A stretch of DNA of 64,000 nucleotides from Blautia schinkii DSM 10518 (GTDB taxonomy: Bacteria; Bacillota; Clostridia; Lachnospirales; Lachnospiraceae). Each line of letters begins with the position of its first letter. Within the stretch, counting starts at the first letter, position 1. The notes under the pieces are model-generated. The model had not been told where the DNA came from, ran no database searches, and saw only the letters and a list, made by a program, of their open reading frames with translations. This document shows, one piece after another, positions 22,711 to 28,911 of the stretch. The stretch lies in NCBI GenBank assembly GCA_000702025.1, contig JNKJ01000021.1, positions 1 through 64,000 of the forward strand, in the 5' to 3' direction. The position numbers and the translations under genes are program-made.

Positions 22711-23078
22711 AATGTATGTCGGCCTAAACACCTCCACAGCCATTAATCTTTTTGTGAAAACAGTTTTACGTGAAAACCGTATTCCATTTGAAATTACACA
22801 GTCCGCCGCTCCTTTTTTTCAAAAACCGATATGGCCTGTGTGAAAAAATCCGTCCAGGAACTCCGAGAAGGAAAGAGAACGGTACACGAACTGATTGAGG
22901 TAGAGGATGAGTGAAAAAATCTGGTCAGATGATACTTGGGAAGACTACCTCTATTGGCAGACACTATAATCCCCGCCCTTTCAAATCCCCGCAGTTCAGA
23001 GCAGGGAGAATTGAAAGGGTGGGGATTACATCGTGGGAAACATATTACTCCGAATATAAAAAAAGGAGTGTGTTCATT
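22711..23078. other. gap with a 17-bp inverted repeat
   Basis: AATCCCCGCCCTTTCAA (22968-22984) pairs with TTGAAAGGGTGGGGATT (23011-23027), one mismatch, 26-base loop and no T-run. A fragment around 22840-22914 reads VKKSVQELREGKRTVHELIE before a stop and may be a gene remnant. AAAAGGAG at 23061 belongs to the HTH gene. Confidence 0.5.
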
Positions 23079-23393
23079 ATGAAGAAAAAATATCCTGTAA
23101 TTGATATAGCAAGAACGGGCCAGAATATAAAGCGTATAATGAAGTTTAAAGGACTTACGGTGAAGGGCATTCAGGAATTTTTAGAACTGAGCACACCACA
23201 GAGTATTTATCACTGGTTTGATGGAAGGAATCTGCCTACAATAGATAATCTATATGCATTAAGCGAGCTTTTCCATCTGCCGGTGGATGCGCTATTAATA
23301 GGCGACAGGAAATTTGAGTGCAAGTGCCGGAGTGATATACATCAGCGTGTGTTTGCATATTATGAACGTTTTATTGAGTTTAAGGCCGGATGA
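23079..23393 (+). CDS. HTH (XRE-like) regulator
   Basis: Small DNA-binding protein of 104 residues. The helix-turn-helix is read in LTVKGIQEFLELSTPQSIYH, then WFDGRNLPTIDNLYALSELF and LPVDALLIG, a Cro/C1-type pattern. The start at 23079 is chosen for the AAGGAG upstream; a longer frame starting at 22911 runs through the inverted repeat and is rejected. It opens the accessory island and could regulate the RNA-ligase genes or the RloAB operon; neither is shown. Confidence 0.8.
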   Translation: MKKKYPVIDIARTGQNIKRIMKFKGLTVKGIQEFLELSTPQSIYHWFDGRNLPTIDNLYALSELFHLPVDALLIGDRKFECKCRSDIHQRVFAYYERFIEFKAG

Positions 23394-23481
23394 AATGAGA
23401 ATTATATTTTGCTGTGTTTTCGCAAATGAAACGGAGCCAGCCAGGGCATTATACTACAGGTACAATGACAAAACATAGTTC

Positions 23482-23530
23482 CTCTCTTAAAATGATTTCA
23501 TTGAGATCACTTTGAGAGAGGATTTTTTAT
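23482..23530 (+). terminator. terminator upstream of the RNA ligase gene
   Basis: CCTCTCTTAAA...TTTGAGAGAGG stem followed by TTTTTTATT, between the HTH gene and the ligase. As it sits 36 bases before the ligase start, it may act as an attenuator. Confidence 0.7.
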
Positions 23531-23565
23531 TGGTGTATTGCCAATTGAAATAAGGGTAATTAGAA

Positions 23566-24594
23566 GTGGAAAAGAGAAAATTAGCATCGGTGCAGTATGT
23601 GCACCACATAACTCCGATAGAGGGAGCAGACAGAATAGAGTGCGTACATGTCCTAGGCTGGCAGTGCGTTGCAAATAAGGGACAGTTCCAGGTTGGAGAC
23701 CACTGTGTGTATATGGAAGTGGATTCTTTTCTTCCTGTATGTGAGCAGTTTGAATTCTTAAGAAGCAACAGCTTTAAGAAAAGCGAGATTCTTGGTGAAG
23801 GTTTCCGATTGAGAACCTTGAATTTTAGAGGACAGATTTCGCAGGGCTTGATTCAGCCTTTATCAATATTGCCGGAAGGAAATTATGAGCTTGGCGATGA
23901 TGTAACTGCTTTACTTGGAATTAGGAAGTGGGAGGTCGAAGAGAGAGTAACCAATAGCGGTACAGTAGTGGGCGACTTTCCTGATGGAATTCCTAAGACT
24001 GATGAGCTAAGAGTGCAATCCTATCCGGAATTGATTGAAGAATTCAAAACCGTAAAGGGGTATTACATCAGCACTAAGATGGATGGCACCAGTGTCACCA
24101 TGTATTGGAAGGGTGGTCACTTTGGTATCTGCGGTAGAAATTATGAATACGCAGATGATGATAAGTGTGCAATGTGGAAGTACGCTCATGAGCACGGAAT
24201 TCCTGAGAGAGTAGCAAAAAATAATCTGCCGAATATTGCAATTCAGGGTGAGTTCTGCGGTGCCGGAATTCAGAAAAACAGATTAAAGCTTGTCAAGCCC
24301 GAGTGGTATGTATTTACCATGATTGATTTAGAAACCCACAGAAGATTACCTCTTGCAAAGATGAGGGAATTATGCGAGCTCTTGAAGTTTAAAATGGTTC
24401 CTGTAGAAGAGGAAAAGGAAGTATTTGAGTATGACAGTATTGAGGTGCTTCTTGCGAGGGCAAAGGGTACGTATGCTTCCGGTATGGATAAGGAGGGAAT
24501 TGTAATCCGCCCAACAGAATCAGTATACTCCAAAACCATTGGAGGACCACTGTCTATGAAAGTGCTGAACAATGATTATTTATTAAAAGAATAA
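23566..24594 (+). CDS. RNA ligase, DRB0094 (Rnl5) type
   Basis: ATP-dependent RNA ligase of 342 residues, the length of the Deinococcus radiodurans enzyme. An N-terminal OB-like domain (residues 1-120, LGWQCVANKGQFQVGDHCVY) precedes the nucleotidyltransferase. Motif I is STKMDGTSV with the adenylated Lys at 171; then GRNYEYAD, AIQGEFCGAGIQ (motif IIIa-like), KEGIVIRP (motif IV) and LSMKVLN (motif V). Family members seal 3'-OH/5'-phosphate breaks in duplex RNA. Start is GTG with AAGGG upstream. It is 13 bp from the coiled-coil gene and close to a tRNA-like RNA and a PARG, suggesting repair of a specific RNA. Confidence 0.9.
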   Translation: MEKRKLASVQYVHHITPIEGADRIECVHVLGWQCVANKGQFQVGDHCVYMEVDSFLPVCEQFEFLRSNSFKKSEILGEGFRLRTLNFRGQISQGLIQPLSILPEGNYELGDDVTALLGIRKWEVEERVTNSGTVVGDFPDGIPKTDELRVQSYPELIEEFKTVKGYYISTKMDGTSVTMYWKGGHFGICGRNYEYADDDKCAMWKYAHEHGIPERVAKNNLPNIAIQGEFCGAGIQKNRLKLVKPEWYVFTMIDLETHRRLPLAKMRELCELLKFKMVPVEEEKEVFEYDSIEVLLARAKGTYASGMDKEGIVIRPTESVYSKTIGGPLSMKVLNNDYLLKE

Positions 24595-24607
24595 GGAGGA
24601 AGTAAAG

Positions 24608-25267
24608 ATGGCTGAGAAAATGCTTGTAACGCAGGCGCTGGATGAAAGAGACATGCTTGTAAAGAAAATCCAGGACAAGATTGCAAAGGCTTCCTTTACG
24701 GATGTGAAGAGGCACAATGAAAAGAAGGTTATTGACCGCAGAGTGCTTGAGGAAACCTTCCGTCAGGAGGCTGAGAGTGCTTATCAGCAAATCATGGATT
24801 TAATCGAACGATTCCAGAAGTTAGATGCGGCTATTGTGGCTTCTAATGCCGCAACCATAATTCATATTTCTTTTGGTGATTACACTGTAGCTGGTGCAAT
24901 TTCACTTAGAAGCAGAATGCGAGGAAACGGCAGCTACGATGATGAGGCTGATTTCGAGCAGAGCCTTTACATCAAGATGAAGAATGAGCTGGACAAGAGA
25001 CTTATTTCTATTGAAAATAAGAATAAGCAGCTTGAGACTACTGCAGAGAGCATGCGTCTGAGCATTCTTGGTAAGGATAGCAAGATGAAGGATGACAAGC
25101 CTCTTGAGGTGGTGGCTGCTTATGTACAGGAGAACACAGCTGAGCTTGTGGATCCACTCGATGTACATAAGAAGGTAGAAGAGATTCAGGAGAAAAGAGC
25201 AAAGCTTCTGTCGGAGCTTGATACTCAGATTAAGGTATCAAACGCTACAACCTTTATCGAGATTTAA
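24608..25267 (+). CDS. coiled-coil protein, partner of the RNA ligase
   Basis: Charged, helical protein of 219 residues beginning MAEKMLVTQALDERDMLVKK behind AAGGAGG. It has no membrane segment or catalytic motif. Two similar blocks, LDAAIVASNAATIIHISFGD near residue 80 and LDTQIKVSNATTFIEI at the C-terminus, and the N-terminal ALDERDxL recall the DIP1984/septicolysin-like family, but this is a weak resemblance. The close spacing (13 bp) to the RNA ligase implies a joint function, possibly as an RNA-binding or scaffold partner. Function otherwise unknown. Confidence 0.7.
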   Translation: MAEKMLVTQALDERDMLVKKIQDKIAKASFTDVKRHNEKKVIDRRVLEETFRQEAESAYQQIMDLIERFQKLDAAIVASNAATIIHISFGDYTVAGAISLRSRMRGNGSYDDEADFEQSLYIKMKNELDKRLISIENKNKQLETTAESMRLSILGKDSKMKDDKPLEVVAAYVQENTAELVDPLDVHKKVEEIQEKRAKLLSELDTQIKVSNATTFIEI

Positions 25268-25385
25268 ACATTTTTGTCTGCAACACGAAAACGCCAAACT
25301 CGGTTTCCCCTGGCAGCGGGGTTAAGCTGCTCTAAATTAATCGATGGTATGTCTTGAAAACATACAAGGTACGATTAAGAGGACT

Positions 25386-25458
25386 TCCTAAATAGCTCAG
25401 TGGGTAGAGCACATGACTTAAAATCATGATGGCGAAGGTTCAAATCCTTCTTCAGGAT
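25386..25458 (+). tRNA. tRNA-Lys-like RNA with UAA anticodon, probably not a normal tRNA
   Basis: Full cloverleaf of 73 bases: acceptor TCCTAAA/TTCAGGA with one A-C mismatch, D stem GCTC/GAGC with GG in the loop, anticodon stem CATGA/TCATG, 5-base variable loop and T stem GAAGG/CCTTC with TTCAAAT loop. The D and anticodon arms (GAGCACATGACTT...AATCATG) match bacterial tRNA-Lys, but the loop is CTTAAAA rather than CTTTTAA, so the anticodon is UAA. That would read Leu UUA, yet the long arm of tRNA-Leu is missing. CCA is not encoded (T then CCC). Flanking bases can extend the acceptor stem (AGAGGA / TCCCT, with bulges). Confidence 0.7.
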
Positions 25459-25886
25459 CCCTATATTGGAGATTGTAAACGGTTTTAGATTTTTTATCAT
25501 TGGTGAATTTTGAATGTTGAACCTTTTTGTTCGTAAACTGTGGTATGTAACGTATGAACTTTTCTGTAGGCATAGCAATATGCTAAAATCCATGGGAAAG
25601 GTTTCGTGCTGAACCGATTGACGTGGAGTATACCTCATGGCTGTGTTGTAGGCATTTTTGTTCATTATGAAAACCAGGGAGGGTGACTTATTTTGAGGCA
25701 GATATACAATCTGTCTTTTTGTCATGTTGTATACTGTTTTGTTTAGTAAAACTCTTGATGGTGAATATAAACACTACCGATGAACAACGTCCCGGTGCTC
25801 CTGCAGCATCTATGGACTATATCAGGTGGCAAACAATCTTAAGAAGCTTATAAAAGATGCTATAAGAGTAGAAAGGCGTGGTTATT
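25459..25886 (+). other. spacer between tRNA-like RNA and PARG gene
   Basis: No gene recognised. AT-rich with several possible weak promoters. GAAAGG before 25887 is the PARG binding site. Confidence 0.4.
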
Positions 25887-26732
25887 ATGTTTGATAGAAG
25901 AGAAAAGAATATAGATATATTTAGAGATTCGGTGAAATTGATGAAAGCTAATTTTAGATTGAAGCAGTCTGTAGAGGATTCGATTCAGAAGCAGAAGCTG
26001 TACTTGGAATCGAATGAAATAGCTATCCCAGATGATAAGAATATAGCTTGTCAAACGCTTGTTTCAAAAAAGAGAAGCTTTGAAGCAGCTTCAGAATATG
26101 CGAGATTAGGCAAGAAGGTTTGTGTGCTTAATTTTGCATCGGCTACTAATCCAGGTGGTGGAGTGACACATGGAAGTTCTGCACAGGAAGAGTGCTTATG
26201 CAGATGTAGTACATTATATCCTTGTTTGAATATAGATACTATATGGAGGCAGTTTTATAAGCCTCATAGAAAAGCAGAGAATCCTTTGTATAATAACGAT
26301 TGTTTATACACACCAGGTGTTGTTGTATTCAAAAGTGATATTTCATTCCCGGAAAGAATGGAAGAAAAGGATTGGTATCAAGTAGATGTATTGACTTGTG
26401 CAGCACCTAATCTGAGAAATATTCCAAGCAACAGTATGAATCCATCTGCGGGAAAGAAGGCTATGAATGTTAGCAATAGCAGCTTATATGAGCTTCATAT
26501 AAAAAGAATTGAGTGCATATTTAAGGCAGCGGCAGCTAATGGAGCGGAAGTCCTTGTGTTGGGGGCATTTGGCTGTGGGGCATTTTGCAATCCCCCTGAG
26601 GTTGTGGCGAAAGCTTTTAGGAACGTACAGGAGAAATATGCAGGGTATTTTGAGACGATAGAGTATGCGGTGTTCTGCAGAGGACATGAGACAGAGAATT
26701 ATGACGCGTTTTGCAAGGCGTTTAAGGAATAG
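25887..26732 (+). CDS. TIGR02452 family poly(ADP-ribose) glycohydrolase-type macrodomain protein
   Basis: Microbial PARG-like protein of 281 residues that would remove ADP-ribose chains or modifications. The family signature is complete: NFASATNPGGGVTHGSSAQE followed by ECLCRCSTLY, covering the GGG loop and the QEE catalytic glutamates near residues 88-102. Further blocks: VLTCAAPNLRN and VLVLGAFGCGAFCNPPEVVA, the macrodomain end. The start at 25887 (MFDRREK) is preferred over a GTG nine bases earlier. It lies downstream of RNA ligase, coiled-coil and tRNA-like RNA; this combination fits RNA repair or reversal of RNA/protein ADP-ribosylation. Confidence 0.9.
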   Translation: MFDRREKNIDIFRDSVKLMKANFRLKQSVEDSIQKQKLYLESNEIAIPDDKNIACQTLVSKKRSFEAASEYARLGKKVCVLNFASATNPGGGVTHGSSAQEECLCRCSTLYPCLNIDTIWRQFYKPHRKAENPLYNNDCLYTPGVVVFKSDISFPERMEEKDWYQVDVLTCAAPNLRNIPSNSMNPSAGKKAMNVSNSSLYELHIKRIECIFKAAAANGAEVLVLGAFGCGAFCNPPEVVAKAFRNVQEKYAGYFETIEYAVFCRGHETENYDAFCKAFKE

Positions 26733-26801
26733 ATTCCGGTTATGTGGACATTATATAGTCCGCCTATTATGGGAGAATCAGCATAAAGGAGGAGGTGTAG
26801 T

Positions 26802-26837
26802 ATGAACCCATATAGAGTAGGATCTTTTAATTTATAA
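26802..26837 (+). CDS. very short frame (11 codons) with strong ribosome binding site
   Basis: MNPYRVGSFNL behind AAGGAGGAGGTG. The binding site is among the best in the window, yet the frame stops after 11 codons. Probably a truncated gene remnant or a leader peptide. The rest of 26733-27030 has no gene. Confidence 0.3.
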   Translation: MNPYRVGSFNL

Positions 26838-26976
26838 AAGTTCAGTGCAAATACTCATAAGGATATTCATTTTGTTTCAAAAACAGCACTCCGGAAGAAT
26901 TATACAAATCTGCCAATAATGAAATGATACAAAATCAAGTATTATAATGTGAAAATTGTGAAAAACTCACAAAAAC

Positions 26977-27014
26977 TTGACATAAAATATTGAAAATGGT
27001 ATATTCTATACCAT
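26977..27014 (+). promoter_or_regulatory. promoter and operator of rloAB
   Basis: TTGACA (26977-26982), 17 bp, TATATT (27000-27005), almost consensus. A perfect palindrome ATGGTATA-TTC-TATACCAT (26996-27014) overlaps the -10 and the expected start of transcription, the place for a repressor site. Confidence 0.8.
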
Positions 27015-27030
27015 AAGGAGGTGCTGTGAT

Positions 27031-28227
27031 ATGTTGGTGCAGTTTATGCTGAAAAATGTTTTATCCTTTAAGGACGAAACAGTATTGGATATGACAGCAA
27101 TTAATGCGTACAAAGAGCATGAGAGTAATTTGATTGATATTAAAGCTAAAGAAAAGTTTCTCAGAGTTGCAGCGATTTATGGAGCCAATGCCAGTGGAAA
27201 ATCAAATCTATATTTAGCTATGACCTATTTTCAAAGAATAATCGTAGAGTCACTGAATAACGTTGACGATGGTGCGAATACTGCTATAAAAAAATTCTAT
27301 GTGCCGTTTTCTTTTGAGAACGACAATAGGGAAAATTCTGAATTTCAAATTATCGAAATTTTGGGAGATTTCGAGTACCGTTATGGATTTGAATATAATG
27401 CAGAATGCATTGTAATGGAATGGTTATATAGAAAAAACTTAAAAACGAACAGAACAGCAATTATTTTTGAGAGAACAACAGAGGCTGTAGAATTTGGTGC
27501 AGCAGTAAGAAAAGAATGTGAAGTATATAAAGAGCAGCTTCCGGTAGAAACATTGGCATTATCTTTTTTAAATAAATTGAAATTAAAAACTGATATTTTC
27601 AGAAGTGTCTATTCAGGAATCATGGATACTTTGGTTGTCCCGACGAATTTCTGTGAAGACGCGAGAATACTCCAGACCTTTTTACCTCAGGTTATCGATC
27701 ATGACAAAGAAAAATTAGTAGGGTTTTTAAATGCTATTGATACGGGGATTAAGGATATTAAATATGATGATAGTGATAAGGAAACTAAATTTGTAACCTT
27801 CCATAAAGGGAGAGATGAGCAGGAGTATCCGTTAGACTTGTATTACGAGTCTGAGGGAACTATAAAGAGTATTATGCTGTTTATTTATGCGCGTATGGCC
27901 ATTCATAATAATCGTTCCATTTTTGTAGATGAATTAAATGTAAAACTTCACCCTCTTCTTCTGAAATTTATTATCGATTTGTTTTATAACGAAACTTCAA
28001 CTGCTCAACTGATTTATACAACCCATGACACTACATTAATGGACAAAAAATTCTTTAGAAGAGATCAAATCTGGTTTGTACAGAAGGATGAATTCGGATA
28101 TTCGGAATTGGTTGCTCTGTCTGATTTTAAAGTCAGATCAGATGCTTCTTTTGAAAAAGACTATTTGGCAGGGGTATACGGGGGGATTCCGCTTCTTCGG
28201 GATTTTGATATGAAAGAAGGTGAATAG
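27031..28227 (+). CDS. rloA: RloA-like AAA family ATPase
   Basis: SMC/OLD-like ATPase of 398 residues, probable defence protein. The N-terminal strand MLVQFMLKNVLSFKDETVLD, where FKDE replaces the usual FRD, precedes Walker A GANASGKSN near residue 50. Toward the C-terminus are Walker B-type FVDELNVKLHP near residue 305 and the H-loop TTHDTTLMD. Start preceded by AAGGAGGTG. The downstream gene begins directly at its stop codon and encodes RloB. RloA/RloB were first described as restriction-linked genes in Campylobacter and resemble AbiL abortive-infection pairs; no restriction genes are seen here. Confidence 0.88.
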   Translation: MLVQFMLKNVLSFKDETVLDMTAINAYKEHESNLIDIKAKEKFLRVAAIYGANASGKSNLYLAMTYFQRIIVESLNNVDDGANTAIKKFYVPFSFENDNRENSEFQIIEILGDFEYRYGFEYNAECIVMEWLYRKNLKTNRTAIIFERTTEAVEFGAAVRKECEVYKEQLPVETLALSFLNKLKLKTDIFRSVYSGIMDTLVVPTNFCEDARILQTFLPQVIDHDKEKLVGFLNAIDTGIKDIKYDDSDKETKFVTFHKGRDEQEYPLDLYYESEGTIKSIMLFIYARMAIHNNRSIFVDELNVKLHPLLLKFIIDLFYNETSTAQLIYTTHDTTLMDKKFFRRDQIWFVQKDEFGYSELVALSDFKVRSDASFEKDYLAGVYGGIPLLRDFDMKEGE

Positions 28228-28911
28228 ATGGGGAGCGATGATCTGTTTAAAAAGAGGCGGGAAGACAGAAGAAGAAGGCAATACGAATACAAAAAACCAA
28301 GAGCCAATTCTTTTTTAATAGTAACGGAAGGCAAACGTACAGAACCTTTATATTTCAAAGGAATGGAAAAAATTATTAAGGGGCGGATTGGCGGGATAGT
28401 GGATGTAGTTGAAAATCCTGTAATTGATATTTATGGGGAAGGCTGTTCTACCGGAAAACTCATTGAGGTTACGGAACGAATAGTGAAAAATGCAAAAATA
28501 AATTATCAAAATATATGGGTGGTATTTGATAAAGATGATTTTGAAGATTTTGATCAGGCGATAAAACAAGGGAAAGAAAAAGGCTATAAGGTAGCATGGA
28601 GCAATCAATCTTTTGAATATTGGATTTATTTACACTTCTATTTTAGTGATGCCGCATTGCATAGGGATGATTGGAATGAGAAGCTTAATGAAATATTTAA
28701 ACAGTATAATCTGGGGGAAGGGAAATACCAAAAAAATTACCAGGATATTTTTCGTATGGTAAACAATTATGATGGTGTGAATACAGCAATAAAAAATGCC
28801 AAAAGAAGGATGGCAGGCTTCGACGTAGAAAACGGTAAGCCGTCTGAATATGACCCGGGAACGGTAGTGTATAAGCTAGTTGAAGAGCTTAAGCAATATA
28901 TTGATGAGTAA
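28228..28911 (+). CDS. rloB: RloB-like TOPRIM-type protein
   Basis: Partner of RloA, 227 residues. The basic N-terminus (KKRREDRRRRQYEYKK) precedes FLIVTEGKRTEPLYFKGM, with the TOPRIM-type glutamate, and later WVVFDKDDFEDF with the acidic pair. The pattern E...DxD fits a TOPRIM nuclease-like fold as in OLD proteins, split here from its ATPase. SNQSFEYWIYLHF is a family block. It starts immediately after the RloA stop. Target nucleic acid unknown. Confidence 0.87.
   Translation: MGSDDLFKKRREDRRRRQYEYKKPRANSFLIVTEGKRTEPLYFKGMEKIIKGRIGGIVDVVENPVIDIYGEGCSTGKLIEVTERIVKNAKINYQNIWVVFDKDDFEDFDQAIKQGKEKGYKVAWSNQSFEYWIYLHFYFSDAALHRDDWNEKLNEIFKQYNLGEGKYQKNYQDIFRMVNNYDGVNTAIKNAKRRMAGFDVENGKPSEYDPGTVVYKLVEELKQYIDE

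Follow-up and report, generated by a model that had tools for sequence, protein, structure and literature searches.

Positions 23,079 to 28,911 of the 64,000-nucleotide (nt) stretch of Blautia schinkii DSM 10518 DNA analysed here (the window) hold an RNA ligase gene, a gene for a 219-residue protein (CC), a tRNA-like cloverleaf, a PARG-type gene and the RloA/RloB pair, which raises the question of which of these parts form a conserved unit. The original prediction joined all of them in one system, in which RloAB damage, ligase repair, PARG de-ADP-ribosylation and a tRNA-like sensor act jointly. The conserved unit is not this five-part island, but the CC protein together with a structured RNA of about 380 nt that lies just downstream of its gene. 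The cloverleaf sits inside this larger RNA, which had been overlooked (Table 1). Sequence comparison and covariation show that the window holds a two-part module of phage type, with a predicted helical, DUF6847-like protein and a structured RNA in its 3' flank. We regard the anatomy and conservation of the module as firm and close to certain; its function is proposed tentatively.

A scan of genome contigs with CC found 90 relatives, and 80 loci were kept (L017 to L096 in our numbering), with flanks of 0-6 kb per side, many of them ended by contig ends. A strongly conserved non-coding stretch follows the CC gene. The 5' domain of the RNA is found in 80/80 of these loci and the 3' domain in 78/80, with profiles built from the same loci; the 3' block is absent from L036 and L081. 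In L038 the 5' block next to the CC gene is degenerate, and a 5'/3' pair is found some 1.9 kb further upstream, on the upstream side of the gene. Among 299 Lachnospiraceae genomes, CC has a match in 14, two of which are mere fragments of 21-28 residues. A covariance model of the 3' domain trained on Lachnospiraceae only (R1) matches 15 of the 299, comprising 12 with full or near-full CC and three others where the search for an intact CC was negative. The 3' domain is therefore present in 12 of the 14 genomes with a CC match (P 4.8e-17), both misses being the short fragments. One genome (G288; L116, contig C36) carries a relic of the locus, in which an 89%-identical ligase is followed by a fused start of CC, the remnant of a tRNA-like element and the 3' domain. 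Genome G000 has a second, internally deleted CC copy of about 40% identity (contig C5, 227743-228297), with no RNA found beside it.

The two ends of the RNA are joined by helix P1 (13 pairs), with P2 (4 pairs) and P3 (7 pairs) nested within. In the 5' domain, CCC/GGG and GTAAC/GTTAC form an H-type pseudoknot. P4 folds as a hairpin, and P5 (CCATG/CATGG) crosses P2 and P3 to give a second pseudoknot. Across 76 unique loci the 43 pairs of this structure are 98.5% paired, and 33 of them show double changes, while slid helix registers drop to 34-38% paired. Double-change cells number 372, against a mean of 84 and a maximum of 126 in 200 shuffles, in a purely sequence-based (MAFFT) alignment, with the reservations that the helices were picked on the same data and that kinship inflates the cell counts. 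The covariation shows a predicted fold that is closed by the RNA's own ends and built around two pseudoknots. With only 21 nt of linker between its 5' and 3' domains, L022 is a natural minimal form.

CC relatives were found in 622 phage records at E<=1e-3, including ORF080 of phage T5. Fourteen phage or phage-contig regions were fetched; the one from MT838830 holds a CC fragment only, and no RNA match. Scanning viral sequences with the Lachnospiraceae alignment (A1) brought up no relatives, whereas the scan with an alignment of nine phage sequences plus the window (A3) gave 208, of which 80 were kept (21/80 near-identical). R1 was run on 62 phage or viral loci (seven of the fetched phage regions plus 55 of the 80 kept from the viral scan), and matches 48 of them at E<=10, always on the coding strand, with 14 missed (E-values of R1 and of R2, below, are rough owing to short calibration). 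Eighteen loci, some near-identical, reach E<=0.0027, and many of the remaining matches are individually weak. Of the 49 matches, 46 begin 190-392 nt past the CC stop; the other three start at 667 (L145) and, for a doubtful two, at 686-687 (L198 and the second match in L152). T5, Ceto, Milchi, KIL3 and Bobbio gave no R1 match, and R1 also misses L099.

A second model, R2, was built from the 49 R1 matches (alignment A5, which includes the two doubtful matches and near-duplicates) and run on 19 CC loci missed by R1 (13 viral loci, five phages and L099) plus eight DUF6847 controls. It finds 18/19 CC loci, each match lying where the RNA is expected (E 6.8e-10 to 0.051), and misses only L099; some of these targets are close relatives of training loci. 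None of the eight controls has a match in place, with one off-target at E 4.2, and R1 has none at 16 DUF6847 loci. In T5 the R2 match (E 0.0024) lies 261 nt past the ORF080 stop, and the 5' pseudoknot is present there too. R2 also finds L251 (E 5.4e-5) but not L252, a locus with a CC homologue from another Bacillota family. The structures in R1 and R2 are pseudoknot-free, so their matches do not test the pseudoknots. In the 5' domain, the motif CGAAA occurs within 130 nt past the CC stop in 27/49 non-redundant phage loci (shuffle mean 7.5, maximum 15) and was not found there in 22/49; an H-type pseudoknot follows it in 13 of the 27 (shuffle mean 0.35, maximum 2). Because the RNA is present in T5 and CC in hundreds of phage records, the module is ready for genetics, and it defines a class of structured RNA with a fixed protein partner in a model phage. 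By eye, A-rich quasi-repeats with a period of about 10 nt are seen between linker and 3' domain of phage loci such as L206 and L187, possibly a protein-binding array.

The only known Rfam RNA that overlaps is RAGATH-27 (RF03100), and in one phage locus. Its 86-nt model matches positions 4644-4727 of L098 (Dulem virus 39) with 77.2 bits against a cut-off of 76.1, and the match falls on the 5' portion of this RNA, which follows the gene of the homologous protein there. RAGATH-27 was not found in the window, either at threshold or at E<=5, and a search of eight further phage loci at E<=1 was also negative; the literature searched contained no paper that uses the term. At E<=5, Rfam reports in the window only the tRNA and two below-threshold matches, Plastid-ycf2 (on the opposite strand of the tRNA) and mir-1290, both taken as spurious. 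The linker of the RNA from Aeromonas phage 4_4572 (L145, 4430-4561) reaches 36.9 of the 47 bits required for STnc100 (RF02076), a below-threshold match, and that family may touch this RNA class. No description of the RNA was found in a literature search whose coverage left out most subscription papers and preprints. The RNA is folded and largely uncatalogued, and it accompanies a single protein in gut bacteria and many phages, T5 among them.

CC matches phrog_1491 over its full length (2e-33). Its AlphaFold2 model (pLDDT 90, pTM 0.69) has 3kdq as best Foldseek match in the PDB (E 6.5e-3, probability 1.00), the sole match at E<=1, with none reaching 0.001. We take 3kdq to be DIP1984, a member of DUF6847 (PF20935), and the predicted model, with this entry as top match at an E-value above 0.001, suggests the same fold. 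Profile comparison (hhalign) of phage CC relatives plus the window with DUF6847 gives E 2.8e-5 and 74% probability, while the Lachnospiraceae CC set alone gives only E 0.0022 and 13%. None of 12 CC members matches the DUF6847 Pfam model at E<=1, and a sequence search of the PDB with CC found nothing at E<=1. CC is a remote homologue of DUF6847 rather than a recognised member. The association hints at RNA binding as a possible role for this family, whose structure has been solved but for which no function is known. No support was found for the label "tail fiber" that CC carries in some phage records.

As a small two-part module with a pseudoknotted RNA, and with a helix-turn-helix (HTH) gene directly upstream in 18/80 loci, the pair could be read as a toxin-antitoxin system, in which either the protein is the toxin and is neutralised by the RNA, or the RNA is the toxin and the protein its antidote. 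Type III antitoxins have tandem repeats, but none were found in positions 23000-27000 of the window. The single fold match of CC is to a protein of unknown function, PADLOC has no match for CC, and virulent phages, T5 among them, have kept the protein. We consider this reading distinctly unlikely.

The cloverleaf of the window, which scores 71.4 bits against the Rfam tRNA model, had been called tRNA-Lys-like. Because its anticodon is UAA (loop CTTAAAA), it is not tRNA-Lys, and an ordinary tRNA-Lys (UUU/CUU) is ruled out here; UUU is read by ARAGORN in the linker of 1/80 loci (L029), which the script parsed as having a 5-nt loop. The UAA anticodon stands on a short-variable-loop backbone, which real tRNA-Leu lacks. 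The script parsed 65 of the 81 linkers (those of the 80 loci plus the window's own) but not the other 16. L023, L057 and L061 (mis-parsed) and L079 (poor acceptor) were dropped by hand, leaving 61 complete cloverleaves; at relaxed score ARAGORN reports a tRNA-like element in 68/81 linkers, some of them spurious, and reads one with a long variable arm in L061. The anticodon loop has 7 nt in 54/61 and other lengths in 7/61. Eighteen anticodons occur in the 54 seven-nt loops (UGU 12, CGU 6, AGU 6, UAA 5, GAU 4, and others), with A34 in 12, U33 in 44 (10 without) and A37 in 42. The 3' end reads NCC in 38/61 (13 of these NCCA), and 23/61 are without it.

Fitch changes were counted on the CC-gene tree (53 taxa, 63 columns). 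Positions 73 (23 changes) and 34 (18 changes) are the two highest of the 63 columns, followed by the pair 31/39, acceptor positions and position 35 (14); position 36 has 12. Mean changes are 14.7 for the anticodon, 8.5 for other loop positions, 8.9 for the anticodon stem, 8.0 for the acceptor and 4.7 for the T arm, and there are none at T53-56, T58, T61, D10 and D14, so that the T-loop core of the cloverleaf is conserved. Anticodons differ in 31/57 close pairs (<=8 of 60 other differences); the window (UAA) and L024 (CGU), for example, have only four other differences. From the change counts and the close pairs it follows that the cloverleaf fold is preserved, as is most of the loop frame, whereas the identity given by anticodon and discriminator turns over. 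The element could also be a regular tRNA gene, from which RNase P/Z would release a tRNA that serves in translation, as phage tRNAs do. This possibility agrees with the strong cloverleaf score of the window and with the NCC ends, but sits poorly with the changeability of 73 and 34, and with the copies that have A34, no U33, an odd loop or no NCC. It seems unlikely to us, and the conserved isotype expected of a functional elongator tRNA is not seen, with 18 anticodons in 54 loops and a position 73 that is the most variable of all.

Our tentative preference, held at less than even confidence, is that CC and the RNA form a ribonucleoprotein (RNP) that would present a changeable anticodon arm, as decoy or sensor, to tRNA-cutting nucleases. 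As a decoy the arm would soak up nucleases; as a sensor it would be cut in place of real tRNAs and thereby report an attack. The changing anticodon would track changing nucleases, and the neighbouring RNA ligase, where present, could reseal a cut arm. The same RNP in phages, often near tRNA genes, may protect or manage phage tRNAs. More tentatively still, we suggest a new kind of RNP of bacteria and phages, in which a dedicated structured RNA, partnered by a protein of its own, would carry a swappable tRNA anticodon arm as bait or tripwire for tRNA-cutting defence nucleases, its anticodon recording an arms race. Such a module may connect phage tRNA arrays with RNA ligases and with defence that targets tRNAs, and it would record, in nature, the anticodons that are being attacked. 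The sensor or decoy role given to the tRNA-like RNA in the original prediction fits the anticodon turnover, although its fixed partner is CC, within a new RNA, and not a five-gene system.

There is a likeness to phage-encoded tRNA variants that protect against tRNA-directed defence. The tRNAs of phage T5 are known to counter such defence by bypassing PARIS and retron-Eco7 (PMC11555353, PMC12409363); those are separate tRNAs, whereas the one described here is embedded as a domain within a different RNA. The exact AriB motif is found in 12/54 tRNA-like domains (11/50 unique) against 5/259 other ARAGORN tRNAs in the fetched loci, in a comparison that includes related sequences, so that its P value overstates the difference. 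This is a lead rather than proof, as the motif could also have been inherited from a common Thr/Lys-like ancestral tRNA.

Several observations weigh against a nuclease-facing arm as the business of the RNA. At least 9/81 copies lack the tRNA-like domain (L021, L022, L023, L057, L074, L082, L087, L089, L095), which is therefore optional and not the core function of the RNA. Embedded tRNAs occur in only five phage or viral loci, one in MT835544 and two each in L230, L231, L233 and L234. The CC gene is broken in four loci that keep the RNA (L056, L077, L089, L096). Both sides of the pair 31/39 have 17 changes, and position 37 (11 changes) is near position 36 (12), so that part of the anticodon turnover may be relaxed constraint. 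At position 36 the window's own loop (A36AAUCA) does not follow the AriB motif, and no tRNA nuclease is consistently linked to the module in the 80 loci and a partial sample of neighbours.

The RNA may instead be a scaffold or cage comparable to GOLLD and ROOL, with covalently attached tRNAs as cargo or folding aid and an anticodon that drifts because it is irrelevant. GOLLD and ROOL are large ornate RNAs of phages and prophages that lie near tRNA islands and have no known function, tRNAs are sometimes located in the GOLLD linker, and no protein partner is identified for ROOL (PMC12286853). A tRNA in the linker and a phage setting near tRNA genes are shared features: ARAGORN finds a tRNA within the fetched flanks of 57/80 viral loci (21/80 near-identical; background rate not measured), and the four loci with two tRNAs hold them between the CC gene and the 3' domain. 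However, the RNA described here is shorter, has a conserved protein partner and an embedded anticodon that turns over, and the Rfam models of GOLLD and ROOL have no match in the window and phage loci at threshold or at E<=1-5. The lower change at non-anticodon loop positions is also unlike pure drift, yet 37 nearly matches 36. Overall we hold this carrier role to be only slightly less probable than the anticodon-presenting RNP.

The combined action of all five genes would be favoured by ligase matches in 14/80 CC loci (only 32 residues in L064), and by ligase and PARG together in 7/14 ligase genomes of the 299 (expected 2.1, P 0.0017). PARG is found in 8/80 loci and in 45/299 genomes, where it coincides with CC in 5/14 (expected 2.1, P 0.043), and ligase and RNA 3' domain coincide in three genomes (expected 0.7, P 0.027). 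These links between components exceed expectation, but ligase (14) and CC (14) coincide in 1/299 genomes, that of the window itself (expected 0.66), ligase and PARG are together in two related loci of 80, and RloAB-like genes are in 1/80. On account of these counts the ligase is a recurrent but loose partner of the module and the RloAB pair is incidental cargo. The full set does not co-occur across Lachnospiraceae neighbourhoods, the very outcome that the original prediction had named as refuting it; the five-gene system is rejected on neighbourhood counts, and a joint function of this kind is highly improbable. The pairing of ligase and PARG, which are adjacent in 3/299 genomes (L118, L120 and the window), may deserve a separate look.

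The individual gene calls of the original prediction hold. The ligase scores 152.3 bits against TIGR02306, just above the curated cut-off of 151.15, and the CC gene begins 13 bases past its stop; the TIGR02452 PARG gene and RloA/RloB are likewise in place, and the adjacent matches to RloA and RloB models make the pair an AbiL system that lies outside the conserved module.

Table 1. Features of the island. The window belongs to the training set of the 5' and 3' profiles and of R1, so its own scores with these are not independent.
Feature	Position	Strand	Remarks
XRE-type HTH open reading frame	22911..23393	+	likely start 23079 (internal ATG); Pfam HTH_19 4.5e-5, under cut-off; recurrent, non-fixed module neighbour
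DRB0094-type RNA ligase	23566..24594	+	TIGR02306; optional module neighbour
CC, 219-residue, mostly helical protein	24608..25267	+	fixed RNA partner; remote DUF6847/DIP1984 homologue
Structured non-coding RNA, whole	25275..25654	+	5' and 3' domain profiles match; 43 pairs across 76 unique loci
RNA 5' domain	25275..25330	+	P1 5' strand, CGAAAAC motif, P2/P3 5' strands, H-type pseudoknot; nhmmer 1.6e-12 (not independent)
Embedded tRNA-like element	25386..25460	+	cloverleaf, anticodon UAA
AT-rich variable linker	25461..25565	+	
RNA 3' domain	25566..25654	+	P4 hairpin, second pseudoknot P5, P3/P2/P1 3' strands; cmsearch R1 94.7 bits (not independent)
TIGR02452/PARG-type macrodomain protein	25878..26732	+	island cargo
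RloA/AbiLi ATPase	27031..28227	+	PADLOC AbiLi 7e-85; island cargo
RloB/AbiLii	28228..28911	+	Pfam RloB 5.6e-42, PADLOC AbiLii 8.6e-30; island cargo

The promoter assigned to RloAB stands in part: a TTGACA-17-TATATT site that agrees at 11/12 positions lies ahead of RloA (26977-27005), yet the whole region has 22 promoter-like sites against a shuffle mean of 21.2, and thus no excess. The island is flanked by what we take to be a dihydroxyacetone-kinase/aldolase-like stretch on one side and a sugar-transporter operon on the other. Wider neighbourhoods were sampled with 128 hand-picked proteins, mostly two per side, which came from 33 of 40 long loci after six near-duplicates and L018 had been set aside. 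At the top of the 25 commonest families are HTH_3 (11, an undercount, as the nearest HTH open reading frame was skipped in several loci), metallophosphoesterase (7), RNA ligase (4) and PARG (2), with scattered defence genes. In 8/80 loci (L017, L050, L056, L079, L080, L090, L091, L093) the module has a metallophosphoesterase-like match no more than 5 kb away, perhaps an RNA end-healing enzyme.

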